A DNA stretch of 64,000 nt from Sulfuricurvum sp. PD_MW2 (GTDB taxonomy: Bacteria > Campylobacterota > Campylobacteria > Campylobacterales > Sulfurimonadaceae): the NCBI RefSeq assembly GCF_002633015.1, contig NZ_NSIU01000001.1:248001-312000 (forward strand). The letters are read 5' to 3'. The first letter of the stretch is position 1. Every line of letters begins with the position of its first letter. Of the stretch, positions 24,707-43,010 are shown in pieces. The notes beneath the pieces are model-generated. The model was not told where the DNA came from. It saw only the letters and a list, made by a program, of their open reading frames with translations, and ran no database searches. Made by a program: the position numbers and the translations under genes.

Positions 24707-24723
24707 GGGAACTTTTTTTGCTT
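24707..24723 (+). promoter_or_regulatory. Candidate sigma-54 promoter of fliD
   Basis: GGGAAC-N5-TTGCTT has GG (24708-24709) and GC (24720-24721) exactly ten bases apart, directly after the SDR stop. It is a good match apart from the first and fourth bases. Confidence 0.5.
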
Positions 24724-24735: not shown

Positions 24736-24763
24736 TAAATATTTGGTCGTGATCGGTCGATAT
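24736..24763 (+). promoter_or_regulatory. Candidate sigma-28 promoter of fliD
   Basis: TAAA (24736-24739) and GTCGATAT (24756-24763) are 16 bases apart, against the usual 15. FliD is a known late or middle flagellar gene, so dual control together with the upstream sigma-54 site is plausible. Confidence 0.45.
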
Positions 24764-24793
24764 AGTTTATACTGAAATACAAAAGGATTTGTG

Positions 24794-26191
24794 ATGGCAG
24801 GTAGTATTAGTTCATTGGGTATCGGTTCAAACGTTTTAACCTCGTCCGTTATTGATCAGCTCAAAGCGGCAGATACGGCAAGTATGATTACCCCTATAGC
24901 CAACAAAATCACTCTGCAGCAACAAAAAGGGCAAGCCCTCAATTTACTGAGTAGTCTTTTGTCCACATTCCAAACAAGCGTTAGCGCGTTGGGAAATGAT
25001 ACGCTGTATCAAGCTCGCAGTGTATCGGGCAACTCGAGCAATGTCAGTGTCACTGCTTCATCAGGGGTCAGTGTTCAATCATTTAGTATCTCCAATACGC
25101 AAATGGCGTTAAACGATGTTAAAGAATCGGGTGCATTTACTTCAACAAGTTCGACGGTAGCTTCTGGGAATGGGAAGATGACATTGACATCAGGAGGGAT
25201 TTCATATGGCATTGCGTATACCAATTCGATGACACTGGATCAATTAAAAGATGCGATCAATACTCAAGCTGGAAGTAAGATTAAAGCATCAACCCTTCAA
25301 GTCGGGACAAATGATTATCGACTTATCCTGCGATCAGTTGATACGGGAGCAAATCAAGCAATTACTTTGAGTGATTCAAGCGGAGGGAGTTTGGATTCTA
25401 AATTGTATTCAGCCTATGATGCAACGACGAATCCAACAGGAGTTCAATCGATACAAGCAGCGCAAGATGCGAGTTTCAAATACAACGGTATTACACTCAC
25501 CCGAAGCTCTAATACAATTACTGACATTACACCGGGGGTAACGATCAATCTTTTGGCAGACAGCACATCGACCGCTAATATAGCGATTACACAAGATATC
25601 AGTGCTATATCTAGCGAAATGAGCAGCTTGGTAAATAGTTATAATACGTTAACCAGTCAGCTTAATGATATGACAACAACCGATACGACAGCAGGGAAAA
25701 TAGGAGTCTTTAACGGAGATAGTTCAATCAATTCGATTGGTCGTGAAATCACCCGTTTGATGACCTCACTGGACAGCAATGGGAAATCTTTGGCACAATT
25801 TGGGATTGATATTAGCGAAAAGGGGACAATGAGTTTTAAGAGTACAACGTTTACTACAAAATATAAAGAAGATGTAACGTTGTCCAATACTTTTTTTAGT
25901 CATGTCGCCGATGATACCAATAAACAAGAAGGGGTTTTTACTCGCTTAAAAACATTAATGACCCGATATACGGGTACAAAAGGAATTATGAGCAATTTGA
26001 CGACCGGTTCGGATACGGCATTAAAATCGCTTAATGCTAATAAAACACGTGCTCAGGCTCTTTTGGATGCTCGCTATGAAGCAATGACGGCACGGTTTAC
26101 ACAATACGATTCGATTATCAGTAAACTCAATAATCAATTTTCGTCATTACAACAACAAATCAGTATGGCTGTAAACGGTAGCTCGAATTAA
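24794..26191 (+). CDS. fliD: Flagellar filament cap protein FliD (HAP2)
   Basis: The 465-residue protein caps the growing filament and folds flagellin outside the cell. The N-terminal heptad region (SLGIGSNVLTSSVIDQLKAAD) and the C-terminal helical region (residues ~400-460, LNANKTRAQALLDARYEAMTARFTQYDSIISKLNNQFSSL) are typical of FliD, with a Ser/Thr-rich variable middle. I prefer the ATG at 24794 over the GTG at 24791 because AGGA is then six bases away. fliS and flaG are not adjacent. Confidence 0.93.
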   Translation: MAGSISSLGIGSNVLTSSVIDQLKAADTASMITPIANKITLQQQKGQALNLLSSLLSTFQTSVSALGNDTLYQARSVSGNSSNVSVTASSGVSVQSFSISNTQMALNDVKESGAFTSTSSTVASGNGKMTLTSGGISYGIAYTNSMTLDQLKDAINTQAGSKIKASTLQVGTNDYRLILRSVDTGANQAITLSDSSGGSLDSKLYSAYDATTNPTGVQSIQAAQDASFKYNGITLTRSSNTITDITPGVTINLLADSTSTANIAITQDISAISSEMSSLVNSYNTLTSQLNDMTTTDTTAGKIGVFNGDSSINSIGREITRLMTSLDSNGKSLAQFGIDISEKGTMSFKSTTFTTKYKEDVTLSNTFFSHVADDTNKQEGVFTRLKTLMTRYTGTKGIMSNLTTGSDTALKSLNANKTRAQALLDARYEAMTARFTQYDSIISKLNNQFSSLQQQISMAVNGSSN

Positions 26192-26196
26192 AGTAT

Positions 26197-26213
26197 TGGT
26201 ACTAATTTTGCTT
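26197..26213 (+). promoter_or_regulatory. Sigma-54 promoter of the pseudaminic acid operon
   Basis: TGGTAC-TAATT-TTGCTT differs from the sigma-54 consensus by one base; GG and GC are ten bases apart. It lies 33 bases ahead of pseB. A small inverted repeat CTATCA/TGATAG follows in the leader (26218-26236). This is the strongest RpoN site on the plus strand. Confidence 0.75.
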
Positions 26214-26228
26214 AATTCTATCATCTAA

Positions 26229-27254
<1,026 letters not shown>

Positions 27255-27256: not shown

Positions 27257-28384
27257 GTGCTTCCTTATTCAACGCAGTTGATTGATGAGGATGATATTGC
27301 CGCCGTTGTTGAAGTCCTAAAAAGTTCGCATCTCACGCAGGGGGCGAAGGTCGAAGCATTTGAAGAAGCGATTGCCGAGTATGTAGGTGCGCGATTTTGT
27401 GTCGCTTTTAATTCGGCGACATCAGCGTTGCTGGGTGCATATGCTGCTATCGGGCTTAAAGAAAATGATGAGATAATCACCACGCCTATCAGTTTTGTAG
27501 CAACGTCGAATATGGCGATTGCTTTGGGTGCAAAACCGGTTTTCTGTGATGTTAAAATGGATGGAAACATTGACGAATCATTGATCGAAGCGCTCATTAC
27601 TCCTCAGACCCGTGCACTCGTTCCCGTCGATTTCGCAGGAAAACCAGTCGCGATTGAGGCGATCAAAAAGGTAGCTAAAAAGCACAATCTCTTCGTCATC
27701 GAAGATTCTTCCCATGCGTTGGGGAGTGGTATCGGCAACCAAAAAATCGGTTCTTTTGCGGATATGACAATATTTAGTTTCCATGCGATCAAACCGATCA
27801 CGACGGGAGAGGGCGGTGCTGTGGTAACCAACGACGAAGAATTCGCTAAGAAGTTAAAACTTTTTCGTTCACACGGCATCATCAAAAAACAGCTTTGGAA
27901 CTCCGATATGGTGAGTTTGGGGCATAATTTCCGTCTTACCGAGTTTGCCGCCGCGTTGGGTCTCTCGCAACTGCATAAACTCGATCGATTCCTCCAAACA
28001 CGCAATGAAATCGCCCGCTATTACGATGAGTGTTTTGCGGGGCATAAACTCATAACGACGATAGCGATTGATTCGGATGAGCAGAGTGCACGCCACCTTT
28101 ATCCGCTGCTTCTGTCTCCTGCATTACACTGCTCAAAAGAAGATATTTTTAGCGAATTGCAAATACGGGGATTAGGGGTGCAGGTTCATTACAAACCGAT
28201 TTATCAAAACAGTTTTTATAAAGAGCGTTTCGGTGAACAGCGATTGCCGAATACGGAACATTTTTACAAAAGTGAACTCTCTATTCCGTGTCATCAAAAG
28301 ATGACGCTGGAGGATGCCCGTATGGTTGCCGATACGGTTCTTGACGTGATGGAAGCCTATTCTCACCGAGGATGCAGTTTTTAA
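27257..28384 (+). CDS. pseC: UDP-4-amino-4,6-dideoxy-L-AltNAc aminotransferase PseC
   Basis: This PLP enzyme adds the 4-amino group from glutamate to the PseB product. The 375 residues begin at GTG 27257 with the upstream site AGGAG. DegT/DnrJ family markers are NSATSALLGAYAA, VPVDFAGKPV, EDSSHALGS and the PLP lysine K179 in SFHAIKPITTGEGG. It lies two bases after pseB. Confidence 0.96.
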   Translation: MLPYSTQLIDEDDIAAVVEVLKSSHLTQGAKVEAFEEAIAEYVGARFCVAFNSATSALLGAYAAIGLKENDEIITTPISFVATSNMAIALGAKPVFCDVKMDGNIDESLIEALITPQTRALVPVDFAGKPVAIEAIKKVAKKHNLFVIEDSSHALGSGIGNQKIGSFADMTIFSFHAIKPITTGEGGAVVTNDEEFAKKLKLFRSHGIIKKQLWNSDMVSLGHNFRLTEFAAALGLSQLHKLDRFLQTRNEIARYYDECFAGHKLITTIAIDSDEQSARHLYPLLLSPALHCSKEDIFSELQIRGLGVQVHYKPIYQNSFYKERFGEQRLPNTEHFYKSELSIPCHQKMTLEDARMVADTVLDVMEAYSHRGCSF

Positions 28385-28394
28385 AGGAGAATTG

Positions 28395-29081
28395 ATGCGT
28401 GTAGCTATTATCCCAGCCCGTGGCGGAAGCAAACGGGTACCCCGAAAAAACATCAAAATATTTGCAGACCTTCCGATCATTGCCTATAGCATCAAAGCCG
28501 CACAGGAATCAGAGCTGTTTGATCGTATCGTGGTCACCACCGATGATGAAGAGATTGCCGAGGTAGCACGCAGTTACGGTGCGGAGATCCCGTTTATGAG
28601 ACCAAAAGAGTTGAGTGACGATCATACCGCTACGATTCCCGTTATCGCTCACGCGATCCAAACACTTCAAAACGATTCGGTTATCGATTATGCCTGCTGT
28701 ATTTATGCTACCGCCCCTTTTATCCGCTCTCAAGATATCATCGATGCGTATAACTCCCTTATAACTCATAACAAACAGTATGCCTTTCCTGTTACAACAT
28801 TCCCGTTTCCGATTCAGAGAGGTGTGAAGCGTGACGCGCAAGGAAATATCGAAATGTTTTATCCTGAGCATTTCGAAACACGCTCCCAAGATCTCGAAGA
28901 GGCGTATCACGATGTGGGGCAGTTTTACTGGGGAACGCGCGATGCATGGGTGGAGGGAAAAGCGATCTTCTCCGATGCGGCGACAACAATCGTCTTACCT
29001 CGCCATCTGGTGCAGGACATCGATACGCTGGAGGACTGGACGCGCGCTGAGTTGATGCACAAAGTACTCCAAGCGCTATGA
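28395..29081 (+). CDS. pseF: CMP-pseudaminic acid cytidylyltransferase PseF
   Basis: Activates pseudaminic acid with CTP for transfer. The nucleotide-binding start is MRVAIIPARGGSKRVPRKNIK, followed by VTTDDEEIAEVARSYGAEIPFMRP and a C-terminal VQDIDTLEDW typical of the family. I chose ATG 28395 because AAGGAG lies seven bases upstream; the frame can be read from a TTG one codon earlier. 228 residues is normal length. Confidence 0.95.
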   Translation: MRVAIIPARGGSKRVPRKNIKIFADLPIIAYSIKAAQESELFDRIVVTTDDEEIAEVARSYGAEIPFMRPKELSDDHTATIPVIAHAIQTLQNDSVIDYACCIYATAPFIRSQDIIDAYNSLITHNKQYAFPVTTFPFPIQRGVKRDAQGNIEMFYPEHFETRSQDLEEAYHDVGQFYWGTRDAWVEGKAIFSDAATTIVLPRHLVQDIDTLEDWTRAELMHKVLQAL

Positions 29082-29941
29082 ACCTCCTTATCCGTTCTGA
29101 TTCTTCGAGTACAATCGGATTGGGGCACATTATGCGTGATATAGTATTTGCCGCGCAGCAGAGTGAAGATATCGTTATGTTCGCTTGTCAAAATCTGAGC
29201 GGCAATATCATCGATCACATTCCTTATCCCGTACACATTTTGAGTTCCAATGACCCCGATGAACTGATAGATCTTATTCGAGAGTATAAAATCGATATGG
29301 TGGTGTTTGATCACTATGGTATCGATGTGGCTTTTGAGAAAAAGGTCAAAGATGCTTGTAGAGTAACTATTCTCTCTTTTGACGATACTTATGTGGCTCA
29401 CGATTGCGACATTCTCCTCAACCATAATGTTTCAGCAGATCCGACTCGCTACAAAGGATTGGTTCCACCTCATTGCGTCCTTCGTTGCGGTGCGGAGTAT
29501 ACGCTGATACGCGATGAGTTTAAAACCGAAAAGCAAATCCAACGAGAAAAAATTTACGATCTTTTTATTGCGATGGGGGGGAGCGATCCGACAAATGCGA
29601 CGATGAAGATCCTCCCAACACTAAGCGATGATATGAGAGTCTGTGTTGTAACGACATCCGCAAATATTCATGTGAATGAACTAAAGGCTTTTGTCAAAAC
29701 GAAAAAAAATATGACATTGGAGATCGATTCTACACGGATAGCGCAATTGCTTCACCAAAGCTGCTTGGCGATTATCACCCCAAGTGTCATGGTGCATGAG
29801 GTATTGTTTATGGAGATCCCTTTTATCGCAGTACAGAGCGCCGCTAATCAAGAGGATATGTTTGTCTATTTAGAAAAAGAGGGGTATACCGTGTTAAAGG
29901 AGTGGAATGCGGGTGCAATTGCTCGATTTTACAACGCTTGA
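29078..29941 (+). CDS. pseG: UDP-sugar hydrolase PseG
   Basis: Removes UDP from UDP-2,4-diacetamido-2,4,6-trideoxy-beta-L-altropyranose to give the free 6-deoxy-AltdiNAc. The 287-residue GT-B-like protein has LIRSDSSSTIGLGHIMRDIVFA (the GxGHxxR signature with the catalytic His), FDDTY, MGGSDPTNATMKILPTL and a nucleotide-binding C-terminal half. The start overlaps pseF by four bases, and the 3' end overlaps pseH by 35 bases in a different frame. Confidence 0.94.
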   Translation: MNLLIRSDSSSTIGLGHIMRDIVFAAQQSEDIVMFACQNLSGNIIDHIPYPVHILSSNDPDELIDLIREYKIDMVVFDHYGIDVAFEKKVKDACRVTILSFDDTYVAHDCDILLNHNVSADPTRYKGLVPPHCVLRCGAEYTLIRDEFKTEKQIQREKIYDLFIAMGGSDPTNATMKILPTLSDDMRVCVVTTSANIHVNELKAFVKTKKNMTLEIDSTRIAQLLHQSCLAIITPSVMVHEVLFMEIPFIAVQSAANQEDMFVYLEKEGYTVLKEWNAGAIARFYNA

Positions 29942-30374
29942 TAAAGAGATGCTAACAACGGTATTAGCCTGGCGTAACCATAGCGATATTCGGCATTGGA
30001 TGCTGAGTGACGATGAGATATCGATGCAAAATCATCTGCAATTTGTCGAATCGCTGAAAAATAGAGCGGATAAGCGCTATTTTTTGGTTCAGCGCGAAGA
30101 TGCCTATATCGGAGTGATCGATTTTACCGATATTACTCAAAACTCTGCCGAAATCGGGATTTATTCCAACCCTTATATGCGCGGAGTGGGCGAAGCATTA
30201 ATGCATGCGCTGATCGAGTATGGCTTTTCAACGCTTGGGGTAAAAATGTTGGTTGCGACCGTTTTCACCGACAACGAGCGGGCTAAACATTTGTACGAAA
30301 AATTCGATTTTACAGAGACAAACCGGACGTTTTATAAGGGGAGAGAGATGATTATCATGGAGCGAAGCAAATGA
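29907..30374 (+). CDS. pseH: UDP-4-amino-sugar N4-acetyltransferase PseH
   Basis: The GNAT-fold enzyme acetylates the 4-amino group using acetyl-CoA. The 155-residue protein shows LAWRNHSDIRHWMLSDDEI, typical of PseH, and the acetyl-CoA loop PYMRGVGEALMHALIEY. The ATG at 29907 has its ribosome site (AAGGAG) inside pseG. The overlap is genuine rather than a frameshift because both proteins keep their complete family ends. Confidence 0.92.
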   Translation: MRVQLLDFTTLDKEMLTTVLAWRNHSDIRHWMLSDDEISMQNHLQFVESLKNRADKRYFLVQREDAYIGVIDFTDITQNSAEIGIYSNPYMRGVGEALMHALIEYGFSTLGVKMLVATVFTDNERAKHLYEKFDFTETNRTFYKGREMIIMERSK

Positions 30375-31405
30375 AGATTGGACACCACAATATTGATGAA
30401 AAAGTATTTATCATCGCCGAACTCTCAGCAAATCACAACGGTTCGCTCGATACAGCTCTAAAAACGATTGATGCGATGAAGGCATCGGGCGCCGATGCGG
30501 TGAAACTCCAAACGTACACTCCAGACACGATTACCCTCGATTGTGACAGTGAGATGTTTACGATTTCACAGGGGACGTTGTGGGACAAACGGAAATTTCA
30601 TGATCTCTATGCTGAAGCGATGACGCCGTGGGAGTGGCACTCCATCCTCTTTGATCATGCCAAAAGTCTTGGAATGGAAGCATTTTCCTCTCCGTTTGAT
30701 AACAGTGCCGTTGATTTTTTGTCTGAACTGGACGTTCCTGCGTATAAGATTGCCAGTTTCGAGATTACCGATATACCTCTCATCGAATACACTGCTGCCA
30801 AAGGAAAACCGATCATCATCTCCACCGGTATCGCGACACAAGATGACATCGAAGAGGCGTTAAATGCCTGTTGGCGGGCAGGAAATGATCAGATTACACT
30901 GCTCAAATGCACCTCTGCCTATCCTGCCGCATTGGAGGAGATGAATCTTTTGACGATTGCCGATATGAAAAATAGATTTGAGGTAAGTGTCGGGCTTTCG
31001 GATCATACAATGAGTCTCAGCGCACCTGTAGCTGCCGTTGCACTGGGGGCACGAGTGATCGAGAAACATTTTATTCTTGATCGAGGCATGGGTGGAGCGG
31101 ACAGCGCCTTTAGTCTGGAACCGCAAGAATTTAAAATGATGGTCGATGCGGTGCGGGATACCGAAAAGCTATTGGGGAAAGTGACATACGATCTTTCGGC
31201 GAAAAGTTTGAAATCACGGGAATTTTCACGCAGTCTGTTTGTTGCCGAAGATGTGAAAGCGGGCGATGCGATCAACTCTTTAAATGTCCGATCCGTGCGA
31301 CCGGGGTTCGGATTGCCGCCCAAATATCTCAAAGCTATTATCGGGAAACAATTCAAAGAGGATATTTCTAAAGGAACACCTCTCTCTTGGGAACACATCC
31401 TATGA
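30371..31405 (+). CDS. pseI: Pseudaminic acid synthase PseI
   Basis: Condenses 6-deoxy-AltdiNAc with PEP to form pseudaminic acid. The 344 residues hold a NeuB-type TIM barrel (IIAELSANHNGSLDTALKTIDAMKASGADAVKLQTYTPDT in its first strands, SVGLSDHT, ARVIEKHFILDR) and a C-terminal antifreeze-like SAF domain (~290-344, SVRPGFGLPPKYL). It overlaps pseH by four bases. With this gene all six Pse enzymes are present. Confidence 0.96.
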   Translation: MKIGHHNIDEKVFIIAELSANHNGSLDTALKTIDAMKASGADAVKLQTYTPDTITLDCDSEMFTISQGTLWDKRKFHDLYAEAMTPWEWHSILFDHAKSLGMEAFSSPFDNSAVDFLSELDVPAYKIASFEITDIPLIEYTAAKGKPIIISTGIATQDDIEEALNACWRAGNDQITLLKCTSAYPAALEEMNLLTIADMKNRFEVSVGLSDHTMSLSAPVAAVALGARVIEKHFILDRGMGGADSAFSLEPQEFKMMVDAVRDTEKLLGKVTYDLSAKSLKSREFSRSLFVAEDVKAGDAINSLNVRSVRPGFGLPPKYLKAIIGKQFKEDISKGTPLSWEHIL

Positions 31406-32406
31406 CAATTGCCGTCGTATCTCATGATGCAGGAAGTTCAGAAATATTGTGTGGACTCATTCGTGAGTATTTTGATCTTTATTCGTGGCATATTTTTGCT
31501 ATAGCGCAAAGTCCTATGGGACGACTGTGTGAACGCTATAACCTCTCTTTTACTCCTATCGGAGATGCTGAACAACAGCTCCAAGTCATTACTCCTGATA
31601 TTCTGTTTTTTGGAACCGGATGGCAGGAGAAGATTGAGCGCCCCTATGTCCATTTTTGCAAAGAAAACGCTATTCCGACGGTTGCTTTTTTGGATCATTG
31701 GAGCAACTATCGTGAGCGATTCGGTTTTCCCGATGAGGGGTGGGAAGAGAACTTGGGTGATTTTACCGCAGTTACGGATCAAAAAGCTCTTTTTCTAGCG
31801 GAGTCGTTTGCTCTTCCAAAACCTATGGGACTAAAAAATTTTTATCTGCGCGATACGATCGTTCAGGCACGTCAAAAAGAGATTTCCCCTAACAATAATC
31901 TCCTTTTTTTGAGCGAGCCGACCGATGCTGTGGCATTGCGTACCTATGGGGATAAAAACTATTGGGGATTTACCCAATACAGTGCACTGGAAGATATTTT
32001 GAAAAATTTTGAGCGGTTTGGATGTGCAGGACTGACTATTCGGCTTCATCCGAGCGATACTGGAAGCGGATATAAAAAAATTCTCAAAGCCTATCCCAAT
32101 ATTCGGGTTCAAATCAATGATGCGGCGGTATGTGAGCTAACCGATCAGCTTTTATGTGCCAAAATGATTATCGGATTTGATACGATGGCGCTCTATATCG
32201 CGGCACTTTTAGAGCGTCCTGTTCTTTCGTATCTCCCTTCGAAAAATAGGGAATTTTTGTTGCCGCTACCAAAGGAGAGGCAGGTTCGTTCTCTATCAAA
32301 GATTCATTCAAACCTTCTTCTCCCCTCCTCGCTGAAGTGTGATGATTTCGGTATGGATTTTGCTTTATTTATCAAAACTATAGTGGCAAAAGAGCGAAAT
32401 GTATAA
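31402..32406 (+). CDS. Unknown GT-B-like protein in the sugar operon
   Basis: The predicted protein has 334 residues from the ATG at 31402, which overlaps the pseI stop as ATGA; an upstream ATG at 31387 is less likely. No family is recognised with certainty. Two Rossmann-like halves are suggested by AVVSHDAGSSEILCGLI at the start and by LTIRLHPSDTG...AKMIIGFDTMALYIAALLERPVLSYLP (motif pieces) near 215-285. This resembles the nucleotide-sugar half of GT-B enzymes such as sialyl- and polysaccharide transferases or UDP-sugar epimerases. It is fully embedded in the operon, so a role in handling or transferring an unusual sugar is likely. Confidence 0.6.
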   Translation: MTIAVVSHDAGSSEILCGLIREYFDLYSWHIFAIAQSPMGRLCERYNLSFTPIGDAEQQLQVITPDILFFGTGWQEKIERPYVHFCKENAIPTVAFLDHWSNYRERFGFPDEGWEENLGDFTAVTDQKALFLAESFALPKPMGLKNFYLRDTIVQARQKEISPNNNLLFLSEPTDAVALRTYGDKNYWGFTQYSALEDILKNFERFGCAGLTIRLHPSDTGSGYKKILKAYPNIRVQINDAAVCELTDQLLCAKMIIGFDTMALYIAALLERPVLSYLPSKNREFLLPLPKERQVRSLSKIHSNLLLPSSLKCDDFGMDFALFIKTIVAKERNV

Positions 32407-33346
32407 AGCACTGATTATTGGCGCCGGAAGTATCGGCGGGCTTATCGATTCACCGGCATCCAAAGCAGTTGCAAGTCATGCACATGCTTATCAAAAACAT
32501 TCAGATACGGAGCTTTATGCGATCTGTGAACCCTCAGAACTGAATGTATTTGCATTTATGGAACGCTGGGGAGATGTGCATCGTTATGTCAGTGTGGATG
32601 AGATAGGTGCAGATGATCACTACGATATTGTCTCTATTTCATCAACGACAAAATCTCATTTTTATGATCTGACTACATTGTTAAAGCGTCAAGATTCTTC
32701 GATGATACTCTGTGAAAAACCGCTTGTAGCAACCCAAGAAGAACTCTCCACCCTCCATACATTGCTTTTGCAAAGTGATAAGAAAATTTTGGTTCATTTT
32801 ATTCGCCGCTATAACCCTGCATTTATCTATTTGGCCGAGCGGGTTCAAAAAGGTGAGTTTGGAAAATCGTTAGGGTTTCAGGGTGTATGCACAAAAGGGT
32901 TGCTTCATAACGGGTCTCATATGTTAGCGGTTTTGAGCCATTTCTTAGGAAGTTTGGTATCGATCAAACCGTTTCGAGCTTCATTTTGTCATGAAGATCT
33001 TTGCGGAGAGTTTGGGGTCTCTTTGGAAAACGGAGATGGTTCAATATCCGTTCTTGCGCACCCTCCCTATTCTTTATTTGAGATAACATTTTGGTTTGAG
33101 CAAGGGATGATCAAAATTTTAGACGGAGGAGATAAAATAGAGATATATTCACGTGTTCCTTCGACGTATGAAGGGTATTTTTCTCTGGCATTACAAGAGA
33201 CAATGACGACGAATCTATCAAACTATGCGTATGACTCCGTAGAGTTTTTGTTGCAAAAAAATAAAGAGACATGCAAACAAATTTTAGGTGAACATCTCCA
33301 TATTCATAAGATTGTTTTTCAAACTTTTTCCAAGGTATTTCCATGA
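32399..33346 (+). CDS. Gfo/Idh/MocA-family sugar dehydrogenase
   Basis: The 315-residue protein has the NAD-binding start ALIIGAGSIGGLIDSP, then SISSTTKSHFYDL, and the catalytic-site motif CEKPLVATQEE (the EKP signature, ~100-105). The C-terminal half is the family's alpha/beta substrate domain, somewhat short. It overlaps the previous gene by eight bases and the next by four. With the following aminotransferase and acetyltransferase it forms an oxidise-aminate-acetylate trio as in WlbA/WbpB-type 3-amino-sugar routes. Confidence 0.85.
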   Translation: MYKALIIGAGSIGGLIDSPASKAVASHAHAYQKHSDTELYAICEPSELNVFAFMERWGDVHRYVSVDEIGADDHYDIVSISSTTKSHFYDLTTLLKRQDSSMILCEKPLVATQEELSTLHTLLLQSDKKILVHFIRRYNPAFIYLAERVQKGEFGKSLGFQGVCTKGLLHNGSHMLAVLSHFLGSLVSIKPFRASFCHEDLCGEFGVSLENGDGSISVLAHPPYSLFEITFWFEQGMIKILDGGDKIEIYSRVPSTYEGYFSLALQETMTTNLSNYAYDSVEFLLQKNKETCKQILGEHLHIHKIVFQTFSKVFP

Positions 33347-34644
33347 TGAAACTTGCTATTAACGGTGGTGAGAAACTTCGTACAACCCCTTTTCCGGCTT
33401 ATAACACGATTGGAACCGAGGAAGAAGATGCTGTTCTTCGAGTCCTTCGTAGCGGAAAACTCTCTACTTTTTTAGGGACATGGCATGATGATTTTTTCGG
33501 CGGTCCCGAAGTGCGCGCTTTAGAATCAGAGTGGAGCGAGTATTTTGGGGTCAAGCACGCAATCAGCGTGAATTCGGCTACTTCGGGACTTTATGCCGCG
33601 GTCGGTGCGTGCGGAATAAGCCCTGGAGATGAGGTGATCGTCAGCGCCTATACGATGAGTGCATCGGCTACTGCGGCGTTGGTGTACGGTGCCATTCCTG
33701 TTTTTGCCGATATCGAAGAAGATTTTTATTGTCTTGATGTCAAAAGTATCGAAGCAAAGATCACTCCGAAAACCAAGGCGATTATTGTTGTTGATATTTT
33801 CGGGCACCCTTATGATGCCGATGCCATCAATACATTGGCAAAAAAACATAATCTTTTTGTGATCGAAGATACGGCGCAAGCACCGGGTGCGATGTTAAGT
33901 GGTAAATTTGCAGGAACACTTGGTGATATCGGTGTTTATTCCCTCAACTACCACAAACATATCCACAGCGGGGAAGGGGGGATTGTTGTTACCGATGATG
34001 ATATTCTTGCCGATAAAATCCGCCTTATTCGTAACCATGCCGAAGCAGTCCTCTCTGCACGGGGTATCAAGGAGAAATCAGAACTTATCAACATGGTCGG
34101 TTACAACTACCGAATGACCGAGATAGAAGCTGCAATTGCCCGATGTCAGCTCAAAAAACTTCCCTCTTTATTGACGAAAAGGCTCGAAAATACTGAATAT
34201 CTCAATGAAAAGCTGGCACAAATCTCCTGCATAAAACCGACCATAATTCGTCAGGGAGCTAAACACGCCTTTTACGTCCATCCGTTGCAGTTCGATGCAG
34301 AGGCGGCAGGAATGCATCGTAACCGTTTTATCGATGCGGTCAAAGCGGAACTCCCTCCGACATTGCTGCGTGAGGAGTCGGTGGTACTGCTCAGTTACGG
34401 GTATGTCAAACCGCTCTATCTCCAGCCTCTGTATCAAGAGAAAATTGCATTTGGACGGGATGGCTATCCGTTTAATCTCAGCGAAGTTACATATCCGAAA
34501 GGATTATGTCCTGTGACGGAAGAGATGCATTTTAACCGCCTGATCACCCATGAGTTTATGCGTCCGGGAATGAGCAAATCCGATATGGATGATGTGGTAA
34601 ATGCCTTTGCAAAGGTGTGGGACAACAGAGCGGAGCTTGTATGA
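33343..34644 (+). CDS. DegT/DnrJ/EryC1 sugar aminotransferase
   Basis: The 433-residue PLP enzyme is distinct from PseC and longer. Markers are VNSATSGLYAAVGACGISPGDEVI, VVDIFGHPYDA, IEDTAQAPGA and the PLP lysine K205 in YHKHIHSGEGG. It resembles the AHBA synthase/inositol aminotransferase side of the family. It probably aminates the keto sugar made by the preceding dehydrogenase. It overlaps both neighbours by four bases. Confidence 0.88.
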   Translation: MMKLAINGGEKLRTTPFPAYNTIGTEEEDAVLRVLRSGKLSTFLGTWHDDFFGGPEVRALESEWSEYFGVKHAISVNSATSGLYAAVGACGISPGDEVIVSAYTMSASATAALVYGAIPVFADIEEDFYCLDVKSIEAKITPKTKAIIVVDIFGHPYDADAINTLAKKHNLFVIEDTAQAPGAMLSGKFAGTLGDIGVYSLNYHKHIHSGEGGIVVTDDDILADKIRLIRNHAEAVLSARGIKEKSELINMVGYNYRMTEIEAAIARCQLKKLPSLLTKRLENTEYLNEKLAQISCIKPTIIRQGAKHAFYVHPLQFDAEAAGMHRNRFIDAVKAELPPTLLREESVVLLSYGYVKPLYLQPLYQEKIAFGRDGYPFNLSEVTYPKGLCPVTEEMHFNRLITHEFMRPGMSKSDMDDVVNAFAKVWDNRAELV

Positions 34645-35183
34645 GATTAGAGGGTGAGCGTGTATATCTACGTCCGATTGAACTGAGCGATGCCGATGGT
34701 GTTTACCCCTCATGGCTGAATGATCCCGAGGTATGCCGTTACAACTCACACGGGGATACTCTGTATACAAAAGAGATGGCACAATCATACATAAAGAGTG
34801 TGATCGATAATCCAAGCATGGTCGTTTTTGCGATTTGTTTACGTGAGGACGGCCGTCATGTCGGTAATATCGCATTACAGCAGATCTCACTCAAAAACCG
34901 TAACGCAGAATTGGCTGTTTTGATCGGGGATTTCTCGGTATACGGGAGAGGGATGGGGTATGAATCCGGAAAACTCCTGGTCGATTATGCGTTTAGTACG
35001 TTGAAGCTTCATCGTCTCTATTGCGGTACCCATTCTGAGAATATCGGGATGCAAAAACTGGCGTTGAAGCTTGGAATGAGTGAAGAAGGGCGACGTCGTG
35101 AAGCCCTTTGGAAAAACGGCATTTTTGCCGATATAGTGGAATATGGATTAATCAACACCGTTTCTGAAAAGGAGACTTTATGA
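34641..35183 (+). CDS. GNAT acetyltransferase (RimJ/RimL-like)
   Basis: 180 residues from ATG 34641, chosen because it overlaps the aminotransferase stop as ATGA; an upstream ATG at 34617 would add eight unlikely residues. Markers are GERVYLRPIELSDADGVYPSWLNDPEV and the acetyl-CoA loop GRGMGYESGKLLVDYAF, ending with an EGRRREALWKNG segment common in sugar N-acetyltransferases. It would acetylate the amino group placed by the aminotransferase. This is an inference from gene order. Confidence 0.82.
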   Translation: MRLEGERVYLRPIELSDADGVYPSWLNDPEVCRYNSHGDTLYTKEMAQSYIKSVIDNPSMVVFAICLREDGRHVGNIALQQISLKNRNAELAVLIGDFSVYGRGMGYESGKLLVDYAFSTLKLHRLYCGTHSENIGMQKLALKLGMSEEGRRREALWKNGIFADIVEYGLINTVSEKETL

Positions 35184-36313
35184 CCAAACAAATGATTTTT
35201 ACCGATACACCGAGTGATACTTACGGCGAACCGCTTTACAAAGAGTATCTTCAATACTGTACACGATGCTGCATGCCAAGTTCGAACGAGGGGATGCAGT
35301 TCGATGAACTCGGTATCTGCCTAGCGTGTCGGGCACAAGAGCAAAAGATGCGGATAAATTGGAAAAAAAGCGAAGAAGTTCTTCGCGAAACGTTAGAGAG
35401 CTACAAAGAGAAAGCGGGAGACAACTACGATTGTATTATCCCGATCAGTGGTGGGAAAGATAGCGTTTTCCAGCTTCATGTTCTCAAAAAAGTGTACGGT
35501 ATGAAACCGCTTGCCGTGACGTTTAACCATAACTGGTATTCGGAGATCGGTCGCTACAATCTCGAGAATGCCCTCGAAAAACTTGAAATCGATCATATTA
35601 TGTTTACTCCAAATAAAGCACTGGTGAAGAAACTGTTTGTCAAATCGTTTTATAAAATCGGAGATTCATGCTGGCACTGTCACGCGGGTGTGGGTGCATT
35701 TCCGCTCCAAATCGCCGTCAAATTCAACATCCCGCTCCTCATCTGGGGAGAGTCGGTGTGTGAGAGTAGTGGTCGTGCCGATTTTCGAGATAATGTCCAA
35801 AAATTTGATCGCGACTATTTCACCAAAGTCTCTGCCAAACTCTACCCTGAGCAGATGATCGATGAAGAGATTACCCGCAAAGATCTCAAACCGTTTGAAT
35901 TACCAAGTTTTGAAGATATCGAACGTGTCGGTGTTGTGGGACTGCACTTGGGAGATTATCTCTTTTGGGATGATGAGCGTCAAATGGAGTTCATTAAAAA
36001 AGAGTACGATTGGCGCGAAGAGCACCGCCCGGGCCACTACAAAGGGTTCAAAGGAAACGAGTGCAAGTTTGAAACGCTGCATGATCACATGAAATTTGTG
36101 AAGCGCGGATTCGGTCGGGGAACCGATCAGGCGAGTGCGGATGTACGTGCCGGATTGCTTACCCGTGAAGAGGGATTTGAGATCGCGAAAAAGTACGATC
36201 AGCAACGACCTGCCTATTTGGATGAATTTTTGGATATGGCAAACATCACGGAAGAAGAATACAATAATGTCCTCAAAGCGATGCGCCAAGGAAAATTCAG
36301 AGAGAGCCGATGA
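35180..36313 (+). CDS. pseA: N-acetyl sugar amidotransferase (PseA/WbpG family)
   Basis: The 377-residue ATP-dependent synthetase turns a sugar acetamido group into acetamidino. It opens with zinc-binding cysteines CTRCCMPSS and CLACRAQE (~28-55), then the PP-loop SGGKDSVFQLHVLKK (ATP pyrophosphatase), CWHCHAGVG and GEN-type glycine motifs. Relatives take ammonia from HisH/HisF-like partners encoded next door. None is present here; an amidase-signature gene overlaps its stop instead. The name pseA is by family; the exact sugar is not proven. Confidence 0.85.
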   Translation: MTKQMIFTDTPSDTYGEPLYKEYLQYCTRCCMPSSNEGMQFDELGICLACRAQEQKMRINWKKSEEVLRETLESYKEKAGDNYDCIIPISGGKDSVFQLHVLKKVYGMKPLAVTFNHNWYSEIGRYNLENALEKLEIDHIMFTPNKALVKKLFVKSFYKIGDSCWHCHAGVGAFPLQIAVKFNIPLLIWGESVCESSGRADFRDNVQKFDRDYFTKVSAKLYPEQMIDEEITRKDLKPFELPSFEDIERVGVVGLHLGDYLFWDDERQMEFIKKEYDWREEHRPGHYKGFKGNECKFETLHDHMKFVKRGFGRGTDQASADVRAGLLTREEGFEIAKKYDQQRPAYLDEFLDMANITEEEYNNVLKAMRQGKFRESR

Positions 36314-37656
36314 AGTTAACCGATTGCACCGCAACCGAATTATTAGAACTGTTGAAGTCGTCCGCTGCGACACCCAAAGAGATTGCACAAAGCTGTATAG
36401 AGCGGATTCGTGAAGTTGATCCAGCCGTTAATGCCTGGGAGTATTTTGACGAAGCCGCAATTGAGGCGCAACTCGCTAAAATCAAAACGTATAACCTAGA
36501 CGATTATCCTCTCTACGGTATCCCTGTCGGTGTGAAGGACATCTATAACACCTTTGATATGCCTACCCAAATGGGTTCACTGTTATGGAAAGATTTTACT
36601 CCGGGAAATGATGCGCGGATGATCCATTATCTTCGCCGCTCCGGTGCAGTAATGCTCGGGAAAACGGTAACGGCCGAGTTTGCTGTCCATTATCAGGATA
36701 AAACACGCAATCCCCATGATCTTGCCCGATCACCGGGAACGTCATCGAGCGGTTCAGCCGTTGCAGTGGCGACAGGGATGGTTCCGGTTGCATTGGGAAG
36801 CCAAACGGCGGGTTCGATCAGCAGACCGGCAAGCTATTGCGGTATTTATGGGTTTAAGCCGACTTTTGGCGTATTACCTCGTATCGGTGTACTGAAAACA
36901 ACCGATTCTCTCGATACATTAGGTTTTTTTGCTCGAAGCGTGAGTGATTTGGATTTGATGTTTGAAGCGTCTCGTGTGCATGGAGAGAATTACGAGTTTG
37001 TTCACAAATATATCGATAACTATCAATCAATGCCCAATAAAACCTATCGTATCGGGATTGTCAAACATCCCAAATGGAACGAAGCATCGCCATATGCCAA
37101 AGAACAATTTTCCAAGTGGTGTGAAAAACTGCAAGATTCAAGATTAGTGATCGAAGAAACAACTCTTCCATCATTCTGTGATACGGTTCATGCTACGCAT
37201 CAGACGATATACGATAAATCTCTTGCCTATTATTTTAAAGAAGAGTATGCGAAACATGAGCTTATGAGTCCTATTTTCTACGATATTATTCAAGAAGGGC
37301 TGAATATATCAAAAGAAGAGTATCAAGAAGCTCTGGATAAACAATCTCATGAGACACGTGAATTTGATCAGTGGCTGGAGTCATATGATCTTTTGATTAC
37401 TCTTGCTACTGCTGATGAAGCACCTATTGGATTGACGACACCCGATATACCCGATGCGAATTTGATATGGACCTATTTGGGATTGCCTATTGCTACACTT
37501 CCTGTATTAAAAGGGGTTAATGGTTTGCCGATAGGGGTCAGTGTTATCGCGCGTAAATACAACGACAAATTATTATTGGAATTTTTAGGCTATCTTCACA
37601 CACTCGCTTTGTTAAAAGATATTCAGCCGATTTCTCCAATTACAAAAGGACTTTAA
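36310..37656 (+). CDS. Amidase-signature family enzyme (GatA-like)
   Basis: The 448-residue amidase has the full Ser-Ser-Lys triad: Lys76 in GIPVGVKDIYN, the cis-Ser near 145 in PGTSSSGSA, and the nucleophilic Ser169 in GSQTAGSIS. The glycine-rich signature is slightly changed (PGTSSSGSA instead of PGGSSGGSA). It overlaps the PseA-like gene start-to-stop (ATGA) and abuts maf. No gatB or gatC is nearby, so it is not the tRNA amidotransferase. It may release ammonia for the PseA-like enzyme or hydrolyse an amide on the sugar; both are inference. Confidence 0.85.
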   Translation: MKLTDCTATELLELLKSSAATPKEIAQSCIERIREVDPAVNAWEYFDEAAIEAQLAKIKTYNLDDYPLYGIPVGVKDIYNTFDMPTQMGSLLWKDFTPGNDARMIHYLRRSGAVMLGKTVTAEFAVHYQDKTRNPHDLARSPGTSSSGSAVAVATGMVPVALGSQTAGSISRPASYCGIYGFKPTFGVLPRIGVLKTTDSLDTLGFFARSVSDLDLMFEASRVHGENYEFVHKYIDNYQSMPNKTYRIGIVKHPKWNEASPYAKEQFSKWCEKLQDSRLVIEETTLPSFCDTVHATHQTIYDKSLAYYFKEEYAKHELMSPIFYDIIQEGLNISKEEYQEALDKQSHETREFDQWLESYDLLITLATADEAPIGLTTPDIPDANLIWTYLGLPIATLPVLKGVNGLPIGVSVIARKYNDKLLLEFLGYLHTLALLKDIQPISPITKGL

Positions 37657-39608
37657 TGAGTGACGCTACAACCTCTTTGCATCCGGTTTTTGAAAAAAAC
37701 CTTCAAGCACTTTTCCAGAAAAACGCCTATCTCGCGACCGATTTGTTTAAAATAGAGGGAAATACACGTTTTGAGGTTTATCAGGGGAAAGATTCAGTCG
37801 ATATCAATCTCTACGATACCGAAAAGGAAAAAGTTTTTTACAACACGCCGGTTCAAGATACTGTTGAATTTATAGAGAATTCACGAAAAGATTATTTGAT
37901 CCCCTATCGGTATTTTTTTGGTATGGGGAATGGGATCATTATTCAAATGCTTCTGAAAGATCCGCAAATCCAACGTATCATTGTGATTGAGCCTAACCTG
38001 GAAGTATTGTATATTATTCTACACATGTTGGATTTTTCAGAGACGATTTTAAACAATCGCTTGTTTATCGAATCGTATCAACAGTTTAATTACCCTAAAG
38101 CCGACTATTTTCTAACCAGCTCCCAATCGCAATTTTACGCTAAATTATTTGAATTGGAAACCACTTCGCCATATTACGACGAGTACTATTCAGGCGAGAT
38201 GAAAGAGATCGTCTCTATCATGGCAAAAGCGTTTGAATCAACTATTCTAGGATACGGTAACTGTGCAATCGATTCTTTGATGGGAATTGAACATCATGTG
38301 AAAAATTTACCGGCTATGGTGAAGGGGCCAAAAATTATTGATTTGACGAAACAAAAACATCCGGATATTGCTATCGTTGTTTCAACCGGTCCGAGTCTTA
38401 CAAAACAGATTCCAGTACTCAAAAAAATTCAAGATTACGTAACGATTATTTGTGTCGATGCAAGTTTTCCGATTCTAGAAAAACACGGGATAAAACCGGA
38501 TTTTGTGACCGTCCTTGAACGAATCCCCGAAACGGCTAATTTTTTTAAAAATAATGCCAAAGAGTTTCAAGACGATGTGATTTTTGTATGTGTGTCGATT
38601 GTTCATGAGGATATTCTAAAAGCAGTTCGTGGTGGGACTATGGTACTTCAAATGCGTCCACATGATTATACAAAATATTTTGGTTTCGATGATTACGGGT
38701 ATCTTGGTTCAGGGATGAGTGCTGCTAACCTTGCACATGAATTGGGAATGGGGCTTAAATTTAAAAATATTGTTTTAATCGGGCAAGATCTGGCTTTTGG
38801 GGATGATAATACATCGCATGCCAACGATCACACGTTTGGCGTAAATGAAGAGGACTCGAGTAAACATGATTTTTATGTAGAGAGATATGGGGGTAATGGA
38901 GAGATCCGCACTACCCATTACTGGATGATGTTTAAAAATCATTTTGAACAGGCGATTGCGAGACAAGAGGGCGATCAAAAGACCATTAATGCAACGGAAG
39001 GGGGAGCGAGAATCCCAGGTGCGGTCGAAATGCCGTTTAGTGAAGTGGCAGAAACGTTGGTAGATTATAGTCGTCCAAAAGATCGCTTTTCCCTCAATCC
39101 TACTCCTGAAGAAGAAGCTAAAAAACATATCGATACCATTGTGGATAAGATCAATTTTTGGCTCGCAGATTCGATTGAAAAGCAGGAATTGATCGAGACT
39201 ATTTTTCTGGAAGTACAAAAAGCGTGTGAACGATTTGTCCGATATAATCAGGAAAATCAGTTAGATAAAATTACGATGAAAGAGTTAACTGAATTGACAG
39301 AACGGATTGATGAGGTTAAATCTTTAACGGAAAATGAACTTTTTATGCAGCTTTATTTTCAAATCCTTCAATCCTCTTTGCTTCATTATGAATTGGACTT
39401 TTCAGTTATTCAAGCCAAAGTAGTGAAAGATGAAGATGAGAAAAAAGCAAAATTGCTTGAATGGGTTATGGCCCACCGTTATTGGTTGTTTTCGTTTGCC
39501 GGACAAATCAATGCAGAGCGAGAAGTGATTCAAAGAGCGGTTATGACGTGGCCGGAAGAGATTCGTTCTAGAGTTCATTTTCCTGAAAAAAAATTGATCG
39601 AGGAATAA
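37656..39608 (+). CDS. maf: Motility accessory factor (Maf/DUF115), putative flagellin glycosyltransferase
   Basis: The 650-residue protein has an N-terminal helical segment with YFFGMGNGIIIQMLLKDPQIQRIIVIEPNLEVL (family motif pieces ~85-120), the central MAF/DUF115 domain (~205-400; IVVSTGPSLTKQIP, VCVDASFPILEKHGIKPDFVTVLERI, GQDLAFGDD) and a helical C-terminal part. Maf proteins transfer Pse or related sugars to flagellin Ser/Thr. Its start overlaps the amidase stop by one base, making it the last gene of the operon, ahead of the flagellins. Confidence 0.92.
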   Translation: MSDATTSLHPVFEKNLQALFQKNAYLATDLFKIEGNTRFEVYQGKDSVDINLYDTEKEKVFYNTPVQDTVEFIENSRKDYLIPYRYFFGMGNGIIIQMLLKDPQIQRIIVIEPNLEVLYIILHMLDFSETILNNRLFIESYQQFNYPKADYFLTSSQSQFYAKLFELETTSPYYDEYYSGEMKEIVSIMAKAFESTILGYGNCAIDSLMGIEHHVKNLPAMVKGPKIIDLTKQKHPDIAIVVSTGPSLTKQIPVLKKIQDYVTIICVDASFPILEKHGIKPDFVTVLERIPETANFFKNNAKEFQDDVIFVCVSIVHEDILKAVRGGTMVLQMRPHDYTKYFGFDDYGYLGSGMSAANLAHELGMGLKFKNIVLIGQDLAFGDDNTSHANDHTFGVNEEDSSKHDFYVERYGGNGEIRTTHYWMMFKNHFEQAIARQEGDQKTINATEGGARIPGAVEMPFSEVAETLVDYSRPKDRFSLNPTPEEEAKKHIDTIVDKINFWLADSIEKQELIETIFLEVQKACERFVRYNQENQLDKITMKELTELTERIDEVKSLTENELFMQLYFQILQSSLLHYELDFSVIQAKVVKDEDEKKAKLLEWVMAHRYWLFSFAGQINAEREVIQRAVMTWPEEIRSRVHFPEKKLIEE

Positions 39609-39703: not shown

Positions 39704-39721
39704 GGCAACCGATAGGTTGCC
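39704..39721 (-). terminator. Terminator of flagellin gene 1
   Basis: GGCAACC-TATC-GGTTGCC is a 7-bp stem. On the minus strand it is followed by a T-rich tract (TATTTTTAT), 13 bases beyond the flagellin stop. Confidence 0.75.
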
Positions 39722-39734: not shown

Positions 39735-41216
39735 CTATTGTAGTAATTTCAATACGTTTTGTTGAACAGCATTCGCTTGGCTCATCGCGTATGAACCCGA
39801 TTGAGCAAGAATATTATACTTAGCAAATGTAGCTGATTCAGCGGCGAAGTCAACATCACGGATGTTAGATTCAGCAGCTTTCACGTTTACTTGAGTAACA
39901 GAGATATTATTAACGGTTGCGGTCAATTGATTTTGAACCGAACCGAGGTCTGAACGGATAGAGTCAAGCAATTTTTGAGCAGCCTCAGCGATGTTCATAA
40001 CCGCCATTGCCCCTTTAAGTGTCGTTACACCCGCTCCGATTCCTGAGGTTGCCGCAGTACTGGTACCGGCTGCAGAGTATACCCAGTTACCGATCGCAAG
40101 AGCTGCTGTCGATGTTGTACCGAACAATGTTGACGCAAGGTTCATTGTTGCACGATTTCCTCCGGATGAGAGCCCCGCACCATCATTTGCAGCACTAGAA
40201 ACAACGATTGCACGTGCATCCAAACGAGAAAGGGTCAATTTACCGTAGTTTCCGCCTTCAACGAATCCTGTAACGGAACCGGTTCCAGCTGATACATGTA
40301 TACCGCGGCCGTCATTTGATTTCAAGTGAAGTTGACCTTGAGTATCAATCGTAGCGGTAACACCGGTTTGTTCTTTGACGGCATTGATCGCATTGACCAA
40401 TACACCCTCTTTATCGTTTTGTGCGATTTGGCTGAAGTTACCTAAGTTAACACCGTTGATCGTAAGACCTGAGATATCGGTATTAGCTGCGATATTTCCT
40501 GACATTACAGTTTCAACTACATATGAAGCACGTACACCGGTTTGATCGGATGCATTGTTGATAACATCAGCAAGTTTACCGATACCGCTTCCTGCACTGT
40601 AGTCGATTGCAACTGCTTGGAGGGCAATACTTTTACCGTTTGCACTGAATGTCAATGTTGATGTACCGGCAGTTGACATACTAAGACCGGTATAGTAACT
40701 CACATTCCCGATTTTAGTACTTTGAGTAGCACCGATGCTTGCATCGATGGTTTGGTTTGAGTATGCACCGACTTGGAATTGTTTATTTGTAAATGAACCT
40801 GAAAGGAGGTTTTGACCATTATAGTTGGTTGTGTTGGCAATATTGTCCAAACCTTGGATAAGGCGAGAAATATCGGCTTGCAACGCTTTACGAGAATCAG
40901 CACTTTGACCGTCTTGAGCTGCTTGAGTTGCTTTTACCTTGATGGTTTCAAGAATTTTAAGCTGCTCATCCATCGCTTTGTCAGCGATTTGAACGATACC
41001 GATTGCATCGTTTGCATTGGAAACGGCTTGACCCAATGAACTTGATTGTGCACGAAGAGAGTCGGCAATCGCCATACCTGAAGCATCATCTGCCGCCGTA
41101 TTAATACGAAGACCAGAACTGAGTTTAGCCAATGAATTGTCCAAACTTCTATTGTTGCTTAATGATGCTGTATGCGCATTCATTGCCGCTACGTTAGTGT
41201 TAATTTTAAAACCCAT
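39735..41216 (-). CDS. fla: Flagellin, copy 1
   Basis: The 493-residue filament protein has conserved D0/D1 ends ([15 protein letters not shown]; final [14 protein letters not shown]) and a variable Ser/Thr/Gly-rich D2/D3 middle (~170-400), the usual glycosylation surface. It is the last of three tandem copies in transcription order. It differs from copies 2 and 3 in the C-terminal tail (LKLLQ versus LRLLQ) and in residues ~372-430 (for example [14 protein letters not shown]). Its central region is nearly identical to copy 3. No cysteine is present. Confidence 0.96.
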
Positions 41217-41283
41217 GATAAATCCTTTTATCGCAAGAGCATTTCGCCCTTAAGTTGATTCAGCGTCCTTGCTGTTAGAATGT

Positions 41284-41310
41284 ATATCGGATACTTTAGA
41301 AAAAAGTTGA
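41284..41310 (-). promoter_or_regulatory. Sigma-28-type promoter of flagellin copy 1
   Basis: On the minus strand TCAA and TCCGATAT are separated by 15 bases. The -10 is near-perfect; the -35 differs from TAAA by one base. The site is identical to that of copy 2. Confidence 0.6.
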
Positions 41311-41359
41311 ATGGGTAAATAAACACGAGGATAGAGGATGATCTTAGAAAAGAGTATCA

Positions 41360-41377
41360 AGCAGCCAAAAGGCTGCT
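41360..41377 (-). terminator. Terminator hairpin of flagellin copy 2
   Basis: AGCAGCC-TTTT-GGCTGCT, a 7-bp stem just beyond the stop of copy 2, with a weak downstream T-rich stretch. The same hairpin follows copy 3 at 43011. Confidence 0.65.
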
Positions 41378-41391
41378 AGTTGAGATTGCTA

Positions 41392-42867
41392 CTATTGTAG
41401 CAAACGAAGCACGTTTTGTTGAACAGCATTCGCTTGGCTCATCGCGTATGAACCCGATTGAGCAAGAATATTATACTTAGCAAATGTAGCTGATTCAGCG
41501 GCGAAGTCAACATCACGGATGTTAGATTCAGCAGCTTTCACGTTTACTTGAGTAACAGAGATATTATTAACGGTTGCGGTCAATTGATTTTGAACCGAAC
41601 CGAGGTCTGAACGGATAGAGTCAAGCAATTTTTGAGCTGACTCAGCGATGTTCATAACTGCCATTGCCCCTTTAAGTGTTGTTACACCCGCACCCATTCC
41701 TGAGATAGCGGCTGTACTGGTACCGGCTGCAGAGTATGCCCAACCACCGATTGCTACGGCAGCTGTAGAACCAGTACCGAATAATGTTGACGCAAGATTC
41801 AAATTGACGCGGGTTGCTGTGGAAATACCGGAAGCATCGGTTGCAGCTCCGGAGACAACGATTGCACGTGCATCCAAACGAGAGAGAGTTAAGTGGCCAA
41901 AGTTACTGTTATCTGAGAATCCTGTAACCCCACCGTTTGCGGAGACAACGATACCGCGGCCGTCATTTGATTTCAAGTGGATTTGACCTTGAGTATCAAT
42001 CGTAGCGGTAACACCGGTTTGTTCTTTGACGGCATTGATCGCATTGACCAATACACCCTCTTTATCGTTTTGTGCCAAACCGCTGAAATTTCCGATTGTA
42101 ACACCATTAATGTTGAGAGATGAGATGTCTGCACCTGCGGTAATGTTACCAGACATTACGGTTTCAACGACGAACGATGCACGTACACCGGTTTGATCGG
42201 ATGCATTGTTGATAACATCAGCAAGTTTGCCGATACCGCTTCCTGCACTGTAGTCGATTGCAACTGCTTGAAGCGTGATGCTTTTACCGTTTGCACTGAA
42301 TGTCAATGTTGATGTACCGGCAGTTGACATACTGGCACCGGTAAAATAGTTGACATTTCCGATTTTAGTACTTTGAGTAGCACCGATGCTTGCATCGATG
42401 GTTTGGTTTGAGTATGCACCGACTTGGAATTGTTTATTTGTAAATGAACCTGAAAGGAGGTTTTGACCATTATAGTTGGTTGTGTTGGCAATATTGTCCA
42501 AACCTTGGATAAGGCGAGAAATATCGGCTTGCAACGCTTTACGAGAATCAGCACTTTGACCGTCTTGAGCTGCTTGAGTTGCTTTTACCTTGATGGTTTC
42601 AAGAATTTTAAGCTGCTCATCCATCGCTTTGTCAGCGATTTGAACGATACCGATTGCATCGTTTGCATTGGAAACGGCTTGACCCAATGAACTTGATTGT
42701 GCACGAAGAGAGTCGGCAATCGCCATACCTGAAGCATCATCTGCCGCCGTATTAATACGAAGACCAGAACTGAGTTTAGCCAATGAATTGTCCAAACTTC
42801 TATTGTTGCTTAATGATGCTGTATGCGCATTCATTGCCGCTACGTTAGTGTTAATTTTAAAACCCAT
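41392..42867 (-). CDS. fla: Flagellin, copy 2
   Basis: 491 residues, same ends as copy 1 but with its own central region: residues ~177-355 include NVNYFTGASMS, GNITAGADISSLNINGVTIGNFSGLAQ and GAATDASGISTATRVN. The last ~120 residues are nearly identical to those of copy 3, and the first ~170 are identical in all three. It thus supplied, or received, the 3' part of copy 3. Confidence 0.96.
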   Translation of the reverse strand: MGFKINTNVAAMNAHTASLSNNRSLDNSLAKLSSGLRINTAADDASGMAIADSLRAQSSSLGQAVSNANDAIGIVQIADKAMDEQLKILETIKVKATQAAQDGQSADSRKALQADISRLIQGLDNIANTTNYNGQNLLSGSFTNKQFQVGAYSNQTIDASIGATQSTKIGNVNYFTGASMSTAGTSTLTFSANGKSITLQAVAIDYSAGSGIGKLADVINNASDQTGVRASFVVETVMSGNITAGADISSLNINGVTIGNFSGLAQNDKEGVLVNAINAVKEQTGVTATIDTQGQIHLKSNDGRGIVVSANGGVTGFSDNSNFGHLTLSRLDARAIVVSGAATDASGISTATRVNLNLASTLFGTGSTAAVAIGGWAYSAAGTSTAAISGMGAGVTTLKGAMAVMNIAESAQKLLDSIRSDLGSVQNQLTATVNNISVTQVNVKAAESNIRDVDFAAESATFAKYNILAQSGSYAMSQANAVQQNVLRLLQ

Positions 42868-42961: not shown

Positions 42962-43010
42962 ATGGGTAAATAAACACGAGGATAGAGGATGATCTTAGAA
43001 AAGAGTATCA

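Follow-up and report, generated by a model that had tools for sequence, protein, structure and literature searches.

In Sulfuricurvum sp. PD_MW2, the genes for flagellin sugar synthesis appear to have a flagellar promoter of their own. The best reading of the site upstream of pseB is a class 2 sigma-54 promoter that would coordinate an exchangeable cassette of flagellin-glycan genes with the hook genes. The full explanation has three parts: a working sigma-54 promoter for the genes pseB to maf; additional read-through from fliD; and a fixed edge with an exchangeable cassette behind it. We give this explanation a probability of about 0.8. As judged from genome sequences, Sulfuricurvum and many free-living relatives keep flagellar sugar genes behind a conserved hook-type switch, which is retained when the sugar genes differ. 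This would provide a simple account of how, in free-living Campylobacterota, the sugar is ready when the flagellin that has to carry it is produced, and points to a locus where flagellar glycans differ among close relatives under a constant switch. The features lie in a stretch of 64,000 nucleotides, here called the window (Table 1).

Table 1. Features of the glycosylation locus, numbered from the first base of the window
Feature	Position	Strand	Basis or remark
Sigma-54-like site of fliD	24707-24723	+	GGGAAC-N5-TTGCTT, score 20.0
Sigma-28-like site of fliD	24736-24763	+	TAAA-N18-CGATAT
fliD, flagellar filament cap	24791-26191	+	family-library scans
Sigma-54 -24/-12 promoter of pseB (predicted)	26197-26213	+	TGGTAC-N5-TTGCTT, letters TGGTACTAATTTTGCTT
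Inverted repeat ATTCTATCA-N7-TGATAGGAT	26215-26239	+	straddles predicted start, overlaps Shine-Dalgarno
Predicted transcription start region	26221-26226	+	8-13 nt after -12 element, from C. jejuni rule
pseB	26247-27254	+	560.3 bits, cut-off 407.75
pseC	27257-28384	+	above NCBIfam cut-off
pseF	28392-29081	+	above NCBIfam cut-off
pseG	29078-29941	+	above NCBIfam cut-off
pseH	29907-30374	+	above NCBIfam cut-off
pseI	30371-31405	+	above NCBIfam cut-off
Gene with weak match to surface carbohydrate biosynthesis protein	31387-32406	+	no Pfam hit
Gfo/Idh/MocA oxidoreductase	32399-33346	+	family-library scans
DegT/DnrJ-type sugar aminotransferase	33343-34644	+	family-library scans
GNAT acetyltransferase	34617-35183	+	family-library scans
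WbuX-type N-acetyl sugar amidotransferase	35180-36313	+	348.8 bits, cut-off 203.2
Amidase-signature protein (GatA-like)	36310-37656	+	family-library scans
Maf/PseD-type flagellin glycosyltransferase	37656-39608	+	both Maf Pfam domains; PseD match below its cut-off
Terminator-like hairpin	39704-39721	both	between maf and convergent flagellin genes
Three tandem flagellin genes	39735-41216, 41392-42867, 43043-44524	-	span 39735-44524

The predicted pseB promoter site

A preliminary description of the window had proposed that a sigma-54 site 33 bases before pseB drives 13 closely packed genes as one unit. The sequence, spacing and distance are borne out: the site reads TGGTAC-TAATT-TTGCTT, with the GG and GC pairs exactly ten bases apart (GG-N10-GC) in the TGG...TTGC context of a sigma-54 promoter, and 33 bases separate position 26213 from the pseB ATG at 26247. 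The exact pattern TTGGNACN5TTGCTT occurs once in the window.

The looser pattern TGGNAN6TTGCW is not informative alone, since with one mismatch allowed it gives 45 window matches (33.7 expected), and its exact form gives 65 matches in the genome against 34 in the reversed control. A 17-column matrix was therefore built from 12 other sigma-54 sites of the same genome, the pseB site being excluded. These 12 were chosen for a promoter-like distance before a gene; several of the genes were not identified, and others, including flgE, flgB, flgL, fliK, and flgI, were named by eye from protein sequence. The pseB site scores 18.3 with this matrix. Scores of at least 18.3 are found at three window positions on both strands together (mean 0.07 in 30 simulated windows): before fliD (24707); before pseB; and before a secretion-type cluster (52919, minus strand).

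The 13 genes do overlap or nearly touch, as described. All lie on the same strand; two gaps measure 2 and 7 nt, and the remaining junctions overlap by 1-35 nt. Terminator-like matches inside genes are near chance (19 versus 13.5), which bears on whether pseB to maf is a single unit. PseB, C, F, G, H, and I all score above their NCBIfam cut-offs, and thereby identify a pathway for pseudaminic acid biosynthesis.

Conservation and distribution

The Sulfuricurvum set comprised 41 genomes, 29 of them with PseB at E <= 1e-100; the named best PseB relatives of the window are themselves Sulfuricurvum records. A sigma-54 site lies 46-53 bases before pseB in 27 of these 29 genomes, the two others (G019 and G021) having pseB without the site, and the reverse-strand control of the same loci gave 0/29. 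Among the 26 distinct copies, TGG, A, and TTGCTT are invariant and the flanks have diverged; most positions in the preceding 25 bases are almost free to vary. Ten invariant core bases amid diverged flanks are the mark of purifying selection on the site.

A search of the order found PseB in 143 of 248 genomes, 134 of them outside the family of Sulfuricurvum (f1). From these 134 we examined 66, namely the best hits and about one or more per genus, together with all 45 PseB genomes of the same family outside the genus. A site scoring at least 9 within 130 bp before pseB is present in 37 of these 111 genomes, and the reverse-strand control gave 0/111 (best score 7.8). By the same measure, the site was found in 19 of the 45 family members (one at -91) and not in the other 26; in 12/14, 3/4, and 3/5 genomes of three further families (f20, f16, and f7); and in 0/43 genomes of the remaining families. 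The named positives are Sulfurimonas and Sulfurospirillum. With the first base left free, a distinct site is present at 15 of 72 non-Sulfuricurvum loci (L104-L175). These conservation counts and reverse-strand controls rule out a chance pattern. From this distribution, pse genes coupled to sigma-54 seem to be widespread across Sulfuricurvum, Sulfurimonas, and Sulfurospirillum.

At this distance before pseB the site is absent from the Campylobacter-named loci (L143, L146) and the Helicobacter-named loci (L123, L126, L127, L142, L175), and no pseB site was found at the Arcobacter-named loci (L139, L141). The last result is in line with the loss of RpoN, FlgRS, and FliA reported for Arcobacter in the available part of PMC9321776. 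No site was found at this place in the host-associated relatives examined, whose pse genes are linked to flagella in other ways (through CsrA in Campylobacter jejuni). As a separate observation, one Campylobacter may have a sigma-54 site further from the gene: the Campylobacter concisus locus L146 carries TGGCACAGCTTTTGCT at a distance of 86 bases before pseB.

Activator and predicted mechanism

The genome encodes two sigma-54 proteins and two full, strong activators: one FlgR-like (receiver and AAA domains, without HTH_8), and one of the GAF-AAA-HTH_8 type. FlgR in Campylobacterota is not known to need an upstream site. An activator lacking a DNA-binding domain fits the finding that nothing in the 25 bases preceding the pseB site is strongly conserved. 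The same kind of site precedes flgE and flgB of this genome, which places the pseB site in likeness with the hook class (class 2).

The proposed mechanism is as follows. With the FlgR-type protein as activator, RNA polymerase carrying sigma-54 would start about 8-13 nt after the -12 element, the rule given for C. jejuni in the accessible text of PMC3847290, and transcribe the 13-gene unit from pseB to maf. Nucleotide sugars and transferase would consequently appear together with the products of the hook (class 2) genes, either ahead of flagellin or at the same time as it. The sigma-54 and sigma-28 promoters of fliD would add read-through into the unit, and the pseB promoter would form the fixed left edge, adjoining fliD, of a locus whose sugar cassette is exchangeable.

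Probable read-through from fliD

Sigma-54 control of the whole operon, as first proposed, is well supported: footprinting finds the site in 27 of 29 genus genomes, and the genome encodes sigma-54 together with an FlgR-like activator. The notion of a single promoter is too simple. Only 55 bp separate the end of fliD from the start of pseB, and no terminator-like site was found in this gap; fliD has conserved sigma-54 and sigma-28 sites of its own. Read-through from fliD is accordingly expected, and the pse unit probably receives both its own sigma-54 input and sigma-54/sigma-28 read-through.

In a stronger form of this argument, most transcription of the operon would be read-through that begins at the sigma-28 and sigma-54 sites before fliD, and the pseB site would only supplement it. 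The conservation of the arrangement speaks for this form: fliD lies upstream of pseB in the same direction at 29 of 29 genus loci, and is preceded by both a sigma-54-type site (score at least 15) and a CGATAT sigma-28-type site at all 21 Sulfuricurvum loci examined (four of them from a contig that is already in the set). In the same comparison, two Sulfurimonas-family loci lack the sigma-54 site before fliD. However, the pseB site persists at loci with a divergent fliD or with no fliD found upstream (in Sulfurimonas L111, L113, L115, L116, L117, and L121 it is kept with fliD oppositely oriented), and its core is invariant in the 26 distinct copies. Read-through as the main source thus seems unlikely, while still deserving serious weight. 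(A whole-genome scan for sigma-28 patterns, with 1263 matches versus 699 in the reversed control, was too noisy and was not used.)

Sigma-70 promoters and the leader repeat

Alternatively, sigma-70 promoters within or before the operon might supply most of the transcription, the -24/-12 sequence being a relic. Sigma-70-like matches are common throughout the region (42 versus 31.6 expected), and one of them (26196-26224) overlaps the pseB site; nearly as many are found in shuffled sequence. The material available (PMC5368276 for H. pylori) does not assign the pse genes of C. jejuni and Helicobacter pylori to sigma-54. In an H. pylori csrA mutant, according to the accessible text of the same paper, only jhp0106 was strongly lowered among pseB, C, H, G, I, and jhp0106. 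Yet a relic would not hold the same ten core bases in each of 26 distinct copies whose flanks have diverged, and we regard this account as improbable. Internal sigma-70 promoters may nevertheless exist in the operon.

The inverted repeat behind the site was considered as a leader hairpin over the pseB ribosome site, and rejected. It occurs in a subset of the genus (mean z -1.48 for 25 distinct leaders, 15 of them below -1); its covariation is too weak, 25 of 500 shuffles reaching the covariation score and 37 of 500 the paired-cell share in 13 hand-chosen leaders; it is absent from the 15 leaders outside the genus (mean z 0.12); and the predicted start would remove its 5' arm. Inverted repeats also straddle the predicted sigma-54 starts in the fliK and flgI leaders of the same genome, and can include the ribosome site. 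Such repeats might affect read-through mRNA, or might arise simply because starts are rich in pyrimidines and ribosome sites in purines.

A distinct -24 element

In 30 hand-picked genomes, 29 of them with the pseB site, a site of this kind precedes flgB in 30/30 and flgE in 21/29. The -24 element of pseB usually departs from the hook type at its fourth or first position: TGGAA is found in 2 of 29 pseB sites, 12 of 21 flgE sites, and 22 of 30 flgB sites (p = 1.4e-7 for pseB versus flgB, not corrected for relatedness). This hints that the pse and hook promoters may not be tuned alike, with a possible difference in strength or timing.

That the second sigma-54 (RpoN2) reads the pse promoter would account for the non-hook element, given two rpoN genes whose RpoN boxes (picked by eye as what we take to be the boxes) differ and pseB sites with TGGYA versus TGGAA in most hook-gene sites, but this is very improbable: genomes with a single rpoN hit (G005, G107, G122, G110, and G101) share the same kind of pse site, so that rpoN copy numbers do not support a dedicated sigma-54, and Sulfurospirillum-type sites deviate at another base (CGGAA).

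Known systems

Sigma-54 control is already known for flagellin glycosylation genes in Xanthomonas and for a transferase gene in H. pylori, as far as the available parts of the sources go. In Xanthomonas oryzae, the flagellin glycosylation genes gigX1-gigX10 are under RpoN2/FleQ (PMC8657755, available part), so a whole glycosylation set belongs to class II, the sigma-54 tier of that flagellar hierarchy. The master regulator there is FleQ, and the organism group and gene set are others; Sulfuricurvum, in contrast, has an FlgR-type activator without a DNA-binding domain, a separate promoter behind fliD, and cassettes that vary between relatives. The H. pylori flaB-jhp0106 operon is closer in being from Campylobacterota: mutations in its RpoN site lower the mRNA of jhp0106, a maf-type flagellin-glycosylation transferase. 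However, in the accessible text only the transferase is shown to be RpoN-dependent, via flaB, and the pse synthesis genes lie outside that operon (PMC5368276).

In C. jejuni, the pseB 5' UTR is enriched 119.7-fold with CsrA, which likewise ties pseudaminic acid synthesis to flagellar regulation. Here control is at the mRNA, and the available part of the paper does not mention a sigma-54 promoter of pseB (PMC4894983). A small-RNA mutant, cited beside this case, has lowered pseB along with hook genes (PMC10470494, available part). The Caulobacter flagellin glycosylation genes flmA, flmG, and neuB are under cell-cycle and flagellar control, but through CtrA; sigma-54 does not appear in a text search of the main text of PMC7591256. 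Searches of the open literature, outside which most subscription papers lie, turned up no Campylobacterota pse operon described as having a sigma-54 promoter.

Possibly exchangeable cassettes

Behind the pseB site, the gene content varies. In all 20 stretches fetched, pseB and pseC come first and later genes differ; in 14 of them, oppositely oriented flagellin genes lie beyond. Five loci (L294, L295, L296, L302, and L305) have the window's later genes through WbuX and the amidase. With the site kept, L298 has the pse genes and maf only; L299 has a different gene set after pseI; and L300, L301, and L303 change after pseF.

The 12 genus genomes without a PseB match at E <= 1e-100 were examined through fliD, for which nine gave a match (G009, G010, and G012 did not); two of the nine stretches stop at or soon after fliD (G029 and G039). 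The final comparison used long stretches from five of the 12 genomes lacking a full PseB match. In G002, fliD is followed by TGGCATTAAAATTGCTT, the same 17-mer that stands before pseB in L070 and L075, and then by LegC, NeuD, NeuB, NeuC, HisF, HisH, WbuX, and Maf, a legionaminic-type cassette. In G030 the site is present, together with a pse cassette whose pseB lacks its middle (real or an assembly error). In G037 and G004 the site is weak (6.8), and the cassettes, of the SIS-isomerase kind, end in Maf-type genes. In G033, fliD is followed directly by flagellins, cassette and site both being absent; in G034 and G006 fliD lies at a distance, and again neither follows it. Separately, at locus L387 (about 3006-3185 after reversal), pseB consists of its start and a later part only, with the promoter intact and the following pse genes of normal length.

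Because a legionaminic-type cassette stands behind such a site in one relative, the promoter seemingly outlives its cargo. At even odds, the sigma-54 promoter that follows fliD serves as a fixed port at which one flagellin-sugar cassette can be exchanged for another (pseudaminic, legionaminic, and SIS/heptose-type), bounded by fliD and by maf and flagellin, with exchange presumably by recombination. An incoming sugar pathway would then fall immediately under the flagellar assembly checkpoint, so that the filament coat could be switched without rewiring its control.

Several smaller observations concern the cassette and its surroundings. All 13 loci with a WbuX match among 25 stretches searched (the window, L294-L297, L302, L304, L305, L309, L311, L312, L384, and L387) pair WbuX with either a GatA-like amidase (six loci including the window) or HisH and HisF (seven loci), and never with both. 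The amidase beside WbuX in the window may supply ammonia in place of HisH/HisF. Among the flagellin genes, the first was scanned against the family libraries, and the other two were assigned from length and shared upstream sequence. The regions upstream of two of the three (41217-41391 and 42868-43042) are identical over the printed stretch, apparently a sign of recent duplication or conversion. Finally, the best sigma-54 match of the window (score 25.1; 52904-52919, minus strand) precedes a cluster at 44623-52868 that encodes a secretin, a T2SSE ATPase, a T2SSF protein, and a pseudopilin-type protein.
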